From the NCBI RefSeq assembly GCF_007671725.1, contig NZ_VCNM01000001.1:1178001-1242000 (forward strand): a stretch of DNA of 64,000 nt, written 5' to 3'. Positions 35,599-36,760 of this stretch are shown here, piece by piece. The notes below the pieces were generated by a model, which saw only the letters and a program-made list of their open reading frames with translations, made no database searches and had not been told where the DNA came from. Both the position numbers and the translations under genes were made by a program. The stretch is from Halorubrum depositum. Its GTDB lineage: Archaea; Halobacteriota; Halobacteria; Halobacteriales; Haloferacaceae. Positions within the stretch are counted from its first letter, which is position 1. The number at the start of each line of letters is the position of its first letter.

Positions 35599-35694
35599 AC
35601 GAAAGGGTGGCCGCGTCGGCGTGATATAGGTGGCTACGATCCCCGCGCGGTCGGAGCGAGAGCCACGTCTCTTAAGTAGAATTTCGGCGCCGGT

Positions 35695-35720
35695 AGTGGG
35701 CTCGGGCGGGTTCGAACCGC
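35695..35720. repeat. Exact copy of the tRNA-Val 3' end (distal att-like repeat)
   Basis: Twenty-six bases are identical to 36685-36710, which cover the acceptor 3' strand and part of the T arm of tRNA-Val, in the same orientation. It has no tRNA body attached. This is the pattern left when an element integrates at a tRNA 3' end and restores it, making this the distal attachment site of the 35.7-36.7 kb insert. Confidence 0.8.
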
Positions 35721-35867
35721 ACGACTGCAGGTAACTCACCCATCACAACCTCGAGACAGAGAAGGTGTAAGATGAGCACATAGAGGTCAAGTTGGGGCAG
35801 AGTAAATAAAAAACCAGTGAACCGACAGAATACGCTTTTAAGTGGCAGAAGACTGCTGTCTTTCAGG

Positions 35868-36416
35868 TTAGCTCGCTTCTACTTCTTTCAAAACTAAATA
35901 GCTCATACGAACCAGAGCGACGAAGAATAGAGAGATACCGAGCGCAAAAGCTCCCGTCGCAAACAGGGGAATCCATTCTTGGTAAATCAGCGCTGTGCTG
36001 ACAGCAGCGTACATCCAGGCAAACACGACTACTAAGATCAATATCCACCAAGCTCTATGATCTGAATCACTACGAAATAAGAGGATGCTCAAGAGGCTCG
36101 TGAGAGCGGCGAGAAAAACCGGAGGCGTACCCCAGGGTGATAGAAGTGGAACCCAATTTATCCAAAGTTGCAAATAAATCAGGTACTGAGCAGCTAATTT
36201 GATTATCAAATGTATTGTGATTGCTATTCCAGACAACGCCATGCAAATGGCTCCAACTGCTAAGATCCGAGCAGGATCGGTCGTTGACACGCCAGAGAAC
36301 ATGCCTCCGCTTGAATCATTGCTTCTGATTGTAGATTGACCGATGTATATCAGTGCAGTAAAAGACAGTACAATCAGCTGTAAAAAAGTCAGTAAAGTGC
36401 CTGTTTCAACCGTCAT
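35868..36416 (-). CDS. Unknown membrane protein on an AT-rich insert
   Basis: 182 aa with four or five hydrophobic helices (LLTFLQLIVLSFTALIYIG; ILAVGAICMALSGIAITIHL; PVFLAALTSLLSILLF; WWILILVVVFAWMYAAVS; LFATGAFALGISLFFVALV). I recognise no family. Codon use is clearly AT-rich against its GC-rich neighbours, and the gene lies alone between copies of the tRNA-Val 3' end, so it is very probably foreign cargo. TTTAAGTAA about 21-29 bases upstream of the ATG is a likely TATA box. Confidence 0.75.
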   Translation of the reverse strand: MTVETGTLLTFLQLIVLSFTALIYIGQSTIRSNDSSGGMFSGVSTTDPARILAVGAICMALSGIAITIHLIIKLAAQYLIYLQLWINWVPLLSPWGTPPVFLAALTSLLSILLFRSDSDHRAWWILILVVVFAWMYAAVSTALIYQEWIPLFATGAFALGISLFFVALVRMSYLVLKEVEAS

Positions 36417-36570
36417 ATCATCTGTCTCGTAGATGAATTACTTAAATCAGGTTGACTCCTCAAAAAGACGGATGAAAAGATCCCGCCGCTGTGCAACCTA
36501 TAAAAGCAAGAAATTTCTTGTCCTCAAACAATCATAACGACGCCGCTCGCGTGATGCCCGCGACAGCGAC

Positions 36571-36596
36571 AGTGGGCTCGGGCGTGTTCGAACCTC
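36571..36596. repeat. Degenerate second copy of the tRNA-Val 3' end
   Basis: Matches 36685-36710 except at 36585 and 36595, and lies exactly 114 bases from it. The identity extends upstream into CGCGACAGCGACAG (36559 and 36673). It may be an older attachment scar or part of a 114-bp tandem duplication next to the tRNA gene. Confidence 0.7.
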
Positions 36597-36686
36597 ACTC
36601 ACTCCGCTCGCTCCGTTCCCTGCTTCGAACCGCGCCCTCAGACACGCACGACGCTGTCGCTCGCGGGGTGCTCGCGACAGCGACAG

Positions 36687-36760
36687 TGGGCTCGGGCGGG
36701 TTCGAACCGCCGATCTCAGCCTTGTAAAGGCCGCGTCATAACCAGCTAGACCACGAGCCC
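36687..36760 (-). tRNA. tRNA-Val (anticodon TAC)
   Basis: A 74-base cloverleaf on the minus strand. Acceptor GGGCTCG pairs with CGAGCCC and discriminator A is at 36687. Anticodon stem CGGCC/GGCTG encloses TTTACAA, giving TAC (reads GTA and related Val codons). T arm GGCGG-TTCGAAC-CCGCC. No intron. Its 3' end is duplicated at 35695-35720 and imperfectly at 36571-36596. Confidence 0.95.

Follow-up and report, generated by a model that had tools for sequence, protein, structure and literature searches.

Several described systems build arrays or families of short DNA units. Integrons combine attI and attC sites with cassette arrays, and their attC sites are imperfect hairpins, while arrays of clustered regularly interspaced short palindromic repeats (CRISPR) have a repeat-spacer layout with unique foreign spacers and are associated with cas genes. 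Repetitive extragenic palindromic (REP) sequences and REPINs are short, palindromic and non-coding and occur in many copies. In Escherichia coli, the tyrT/rtT locus carries tandem repeats behind a tRNA gene that start with its 3' end, the repeats being alike and the arrangement belonging to one locus. Where the available parts of five papers mention partial tRNA copies, these belong to proviruses, islands and other integrated elements (PMC3119063, PMC3623002, PMC12186497, PMC8371274, PMC11078007). Here, we analyzed a stretch of 64,000 nucleotides from Halorubrum depositum (the window; contig NZ_VCNM01000001.1, positions 1,178,001 to 1,242,000), in which the 3' end, or tail, of a tRNA-Val(TAC) gene is repeated downstream of the gene with hairpin modules in between. 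With slightly less than even confidence, we read these repeats as a tRNA-tail cassette array that is found throughout the class of haloarchaea and would be the product of an active, trans-acting recombination process, integron-like in its logic. This appears to be an undescribed recombination system and not an ordinary virus scar; no description of such arrays was found in the literature searched, a scope that left out most subscription papers and all bioRxiv preprints and is not proof of absence.

The genome of the window (G000) is that of a haloarchaeon with 3.18 Mb in 5 contigs. ARAGORN places the tRNA-Val(TAC) gene at 36686-36760 on the reverse strand, and it is positions 53-73 of this tRNA that are copied downstream. 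Exact copies of the 25-mer GTGGGCTCGGGCGGGTTCGAACCGC stand at 35696-35720 and at 36686-36710, in the same orientation and with a start spacing of 990, and the match grows to 26 bases with the preceding A (35695-35720 versus 36685-36710), so that the exact repeat of 26 bases about 1 kb away on which an earlier note on this DNA was built is borne out. Recurrence of the 25-mer with up to 3 mismatches has a chance expectation of 0.00 (100 shuffles). A third tail copy, overlooked in that note, lies at 36572-36596 with 2 mismatches in 25.

Read along the tRNA strand, with all features on the reverse strand, the tRNA is followed by hairpin H1 of type D (36653-36681), then by T' (36624-36637, GGGCGCGGTTCGAA), an imperfect reverse complement of the tail assigned from the sequence and the class-wide T'/tail pairing rule, by module H2 of type a (36595-36623) and by tail copy 2 (36572-36594, 1 mismatch in 23), which ends unit 1; H1 and H2 were typed by script. 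Next come a degenerate H1 of type D belonging to unit 2 (36542-36571, scoring 0.62 of the type D reference) and an AT-rich island (35721-36521) that stands in place of the T'-H2 of unit 2 and carries an open reading frame (ORF; 35868-36416). The exact tail copy 3 (35696-35720) closes the segment, and continuous with it are the first 11 bases of an H1 of type C (35685-35695), beyond which lies a CNNM/CBS gene. Adjoining the tRNA, the 145 bases at 36541-36685 form a hairpin unit that includes a tail copy of its own and has 69.7% G+C. The segment between the tRNA and its old flank is one normal unit followed by a second in which AT-rich DNA carrying the orphan membrane gene takes the place of T'-H2.

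Tail copy 3 and its 11 flanking bases are identical at 36 of 36 positions to the tRNA 3' end and immediate flank in two sister species (G035 and G031), where the beginning of H1 type C lies directly behind the tRNA, so that about 1 kb lies between the tRNA of the window and its former flank, as an insertion at the tRNA 3' end would leave it. The insertion at the tRNA 3' end proposed in the earlier note is supported by the displaced tRNA end with its old flank and by the orphan AT-rich gene; that the tail copies mark one element of the virus or plasmid type, as had been supposed, is not supported. A further difference lies directly past tail copy 3, where about 1.2 kb present between the array and the CNNM gene in G035, G031 and G044 (L042, L046, L048) is missing from the window (35600-35685).

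The tRNA-Val gene was sought in 52 congeners, the own genome included, and was recovered at full length in 50, the downstream DNA of all of which was read by script. At least one further tail copy (22 bases, up to 4 mismatches) lies behind tRNA-Val in 42 of these 50 genomes, and 15 have at least two. The first copy is usually found 85-125 bases behind the tRNA, and arrays contain one to three copies of positions 53-73, about 100 bases apart, with the hairpin modules H1 and T'-H2 between them. Tail copies spaced in this way at the same tRNA in 42 of 50 congeners, together with tail copies behind many other tRNAs, speak against their interpretation as the mark of a single virus- or plasmid-type element. 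A unit measures about 85-130 bases and consists of H1, T' (the reverse complement of the T-loop region), H2 and a copy of tRNA positions 53-73. Counted from T54 over 96 copies, identity to the tRNA is 0.35 at -3, 0.92 at -2, at least 0.95 from -1 to +18, 0.81 at +19 and 0.38 at +22, and these sharp borders define the copied segment as approximately positions 53-73.

Four H1 types (A-D) and five H2 types (a-e) occur in the tRNA-Val arrays, the types having been set by eye on these arrays, as far as they were listed, and then scored by script on the same arrays. Among the 56 confidently typed of 61 units, 17 of the 20 possible combinations of H1 and H2 are seen; the other 5 units fall outside this count, and the counts of first units and adjacent pairs given below use all 61 with best-guess types. 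Two side observations concern individual arrays. In the first 360 bases behind tRNA-Val of G010 (L057), about 260 AT-rich bases are inserted in an H1-A hairpin, with apparent inverted ends GAATCACTCAG / CTGAGTGAATC resembling those of a miniature inverted-repeat transposable element (MITE). In the tRNA-Val arrays of G009 (L054) and G023 (L072), stretches beside N inside the array resemble a transposase adaptor of sequencing libraries; they are a probable assembly artefact, and arrays may therefore be mis-assembled in draft genomes.

Close relatives are no more alike in the content of their tRNA-Val arrays than distant ones: among 76 pairs of loci with like upstream flanks, 5.3% share the type of the first unit, and among the 785 remaining pairs, 5.4% do. 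Neighbouring units match in type in only 3 of 19 pairs, with 1.27 expected at random, and simple tandem duplication was rejected as the main source of the arrays on these numbers. Differences between genomes run exactly from tail to tail. G039 is without a unit where G008 and G019, with the same downstream gene, have one, and G028 has two extra tRNA-proximal units compared with G048, placed ahead of a nearly identical unit. In this one closely studied array family, turnover outpaces species divergence.

The same modules recur behind other tRNAs, always combined with the tail of the tRNA in question. The H1-A pattern has 8 matches in 12 congeners, all 8 in tRNA-Val arrays; the 11 matches of the H2-a pattern are divided among tRNA-Val (4), tRNA-Leu(TAA) (6) and tRNA-Arg(CCT) (1). 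Tail copies lie downstream of 13 of 49 tRNA predictions in the genome of the window and of 17 of 47 in G048, a few of these predictions being spurious, and upstream of one in each genome, the upstream matches being due to two tRNA-Asp genes with one array in common. With one genome per species, a pattern for H2 of type d (H2d) matches at least 120 stretches. In the 80 loci listed, a same-strand tRNA lies less than 1000 bases upstream of 71 of 83 matches, representing 25 isoacceptors, and in 62 of these 71 the last 20 bases of the tRNA stand directly behind the module (up to 4 mismatches). Most of the remaining 12 are near a contig end or have the tail of an unrecognised tRNA, and one (L231) matches by chance.

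A covariance model of T'-H2d-tail (R1) extends this distribution to nearly the whole class, with matches in 111 of 116 Halobacteria genomes and 41 of 45 genera, 1-30 times each. Five of the 116 genomes gave no match (G061, G064, G106, G187, G210), and these represent a possible lead to the missing enzyme. In a scan of 196 genomes of the phylum, 38 match, all from the order of the window, and no match was found outside that order, with 18 outsiders among the genomes listed. The 14 positions listed for the genome of the window and G048 (of 9 and 12 matches, respectively) are all 22-237 bases behind a same-strand tRNA. At the loci of the best matches, ARAGORN recognises a tRNA in 11 of 12, the other (L311) having tail-like copies and no recognised tRNA. 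The earlier note had held that an identical organisation across distant genera would speak against a mini-element at this tRNA-Val; a similar organisation was indeed found for the arrays, and not for the AT-rich island. A canonical T'-H2d-tail also stands behind a tRNA-Val(TAC) on a contig binned as Bacteroidetes (L219:730-812; metagenome-assembled genome QS_9_68_14), which is either misbinned haloarchaeal DNA or a transfer.

In each unit, T' corresponds to the local tail in reverse complement, and the two covary. Of 237 units, 174 have a best T' with no more than 2 mismatches in 10, compared with 6 when shuffled. We aligned 45 of 78 extracted T'-H2d-tail references, the 78 already being without L231 and without edge-cut, N-containing, duplicate and long-loop matches. 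In this alignment, 92.2% of the pairs are standard in the hairpin that T' and the tail form around H2, compared with 22-37% when the partners are slid, and double-change cells number 62, where shuffles give 20.6 (0 of 500). RNAalifold alone finds only the inner H2 stem, with 10 pairs of which one has double changes; the outer T'/tail stem is our own proposal, first noticed in the sequences and then counted. The H2d core is invariant in these 45 diverse sequences, partly as a product of the search pattern, which demands it. Folding z-scores are -4.10 for H1 of the window and -4.04 for the class-wide T'-H2d-tail as RNA, and -3.18 and -4.26, respectively, as DNA. A tandem G.A motif, GA-RC-loop-GY-GA, recurs in most loops of the H1 and H2 modules (for example, the module at 36653-36681 of the window), and GCGAAGC, a very stable DNA mini-hairpin, is common among them.

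The main rival explanation is that the units are structured tRNA trailers, co-transcribed with the tRNA and acting as RNA in the form of a terminator, a processing signal or a small RNA, while the arrays change by ordinary recombination between tails. We regard this as unlikely, though it explains part of the data. It accounts for the strand, as units always lie on the tRNA strand directly behind the tRNA, and for the T'/tail covariation, and both H1 and T'-H2d-tail fold stably as RNA. Changes in T' that leave a G-U pair are more frequent (62 of 825) than those that produce A-C (55 of 1335; p 0.0009), which hints at RNA and counts against our reading, in a test that is confounded by position and shared ancestry and omits 21 units with more than 3 mismatches. 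However, the trailer explanation does not account for the exact tails, in which the unpaired acceptor part is copied too (at least 0.95 identity up to +18), nor for a turnover that is independent of relatedness; DNA folds equally well, and most tRNA predictions in the two genomes surveyed are without an array at the threshold used.

It is distinctly unlikely, in our view, that the arrays are passive repeats, i.e., neutral or selfish hairpins of a REP- or MITE-like kind that came to lie behind tRNAs and that host recombination rearranges at the short tails, without a specialised enzyme. The modules are indeed palindromic and non-coding, and recombination at short repeats in haloarchaea is described in the available part of PMC3119063. 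Yet the H2d core is constant (with the reservation about the search pattern made above), the looser covariance model matches nearly every genome of the class, and T' follows each tRNA. The matches also stay at tRNAs: with 71 of 83 near one, the sites are not dispersed as in MITEs or palindrome-associated transposable elements (PATE).

The AT-rich island is the exceptional part of the locus. Its G+C content is 44.1% over 35721-36540, against 67.6% for the window, and its one convincing ORF encodes a multi-helix membrane protein of 182 aa that contains about five hydrophobic segments. The AT-rich interior with a single membrane gene described in the earlier note therefore corresponds to 35721-36540 and does not extend to the G+C-rich 36541-36685. 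No relative of the ORF was found in 392 genomes of the order besides the own genome, nor any match in Pfam or PHROG or relative in IMG/VR, and plasmid relatives of the stretch do not go beyond 74 bases of tRNA. The gap of 856 is the largest tail-to-tail distance in 263 surveyed loci, a survey biased in that many loci were fetched via the module itself, and only the window reaches it. Tail-to-tail gaps being mostly 80-140 bases, a role of the arrays as general gene-cassette carriers was rejected; the island itself may have been captured as a cassette or inserted later.

An ordinary integrated mini-element or virus or plasmid scar, with the tRNA as attL and 35696-35720 as attR, would fit the displaced tRNA end with its old flank, the 26-base exact repeat and the AT-rich orphan cargo, but is very improbable given that tail copies are the rule at tRNA-Val in the genus, that the segment holds an array unit with its own tail and that no related element was found.

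Three further origins were rejected. Searches of nine loci with Rfam models, with E up to 1, gave only tRNA above the gathering score, other families being weak and below their cut-offs, so that no known RNA family, rtT repeats included, was matched. A viral origin was discarded, as the two matches to H2d in IMG/VR represent a single coding-like sequence that lacks both tail and T' and no phage record was matched, and a plasmid origin, as the only full copy found on a plasmid likewise follows a tRNA, in this case tRNA-Val(CAC). Separately, two haloarchaeal plasmids (L315:2501-2530, L316:2501-2530) have an H2d-like core upstream of TFB genes, with no T', tail or tRNA in the stretch.

Turning back to cassette recombination at tRNA tails, the exact tail copies including their unpaired acceptor part, the restoration of the tRNA, the mixing of modules and the independence from relatedness argue for exchange at the level of DNA. 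In the proposed mechanism, units would be gained and lost exactly tail to tail next to the tRNA and, with a tail at the end of every unit, each event would leave an intact tRNA gene. The folded T'-H2-tail hairpin would be the structure recognised by a trans-acting recombinase, possibly of the tyrosine type, as in integron arrays, and we suggest that T' may follow the tail through template-switch correction of a quasi-palindrome. That this is a dedicated, undescribed haloarchaeal system, whose enzyme reads the folded strand, adds units next to the tRNA and occasionally captures a gene such as that of the membrane protein here, we consider possible but doubtful.

Several further observations weigh against the recombination reading. 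No recombinase, circle or tRNA-free unit was found, no search for a helper integrase having been made elsewhere in the genome. The only full plasmid copy is behind a tRNA, and no array unit was found in phages or IMG/VR. The window's own T'-H2a-tail folds no better than shuffles (z -0.78 as RNA, -0.90 as DNA). On transfer to a different tRNA, a unit would carry along a tail and a T' that do not fit there, and spread between tRNAs thus needs a further step. Finally, with one genome per species, gain of proximal units, which we favour, looks the same as loss.

Nearly all sampled Halobacteria carry this structured non-coding element at the tails of many tRNA genes. If it belongs to a recombination system, it would represent a new way of building arrays precisely where archaeal viruses and plasmids insert, and could as such be a decoy, a memory or a platform for gene capture; if it acts as RNA, tRNA trailers would be an unstudied layer in an entire class. 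In either case, a duplicated tRNA tail in haloarchaea is not proof of a provirus.

Compared with known systems, the locus resembles the tRNA-site integrative elements of archaea, as far as these are covered by the available part of PMC8371274, in that a direct repeat of the tRNA tail surrounds inserted DNA and the tRNA is restored. It differs in that the units are about 100 bases long, non-coding, modular, arrayed behind many tRNAs per genome and devoid of an integrase; between the repeats of the window, the only gene is the orphan membrane ORF without a Pfam or PHROG match, a helper elsewhere in the genome not having been sought. With REP/REPIN sequences and the haloarchaeal MITEs, PATEs and small mobile repeats the units share a short, non-coding, palindromic and many-copy form, but the latter repeats are not described as bound to tRNA tails in the part of PMC3119063 available, whereas here the arms vary with the host tRNA and the core is constant. 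The tyrT/rtT repeats are alike in being tandem and starting with a tRNA 3' end, in contrast to the many tRNAs, mixed modules and T' arm seen here. CRISPR arrays are similar in their repeat-spacer layout and in the differences at the tRNA-adjacent end seen here in two cases, but the repeat here is a tRNA tail, and a small set of shared, recurring modules takes the place of unique foreign spacers; cas genes were not sought. The attC core of integrons reads GTTRRRY / RYYYAAC, and the tails here read GTTCRAA. No IntI is named among the neighbour genes read, although no IntI search was made, and, unlike in integrons, the hairpin arms match the local tRNA tail and units almost never hold a gene. Like integrons, the arrays string units together at a recurring site, and every unit ends in an imperfect hairpin with an unpaired spacer and a variable loop, which would here be the site of recombination; the analogy is one of logic, not of membership.
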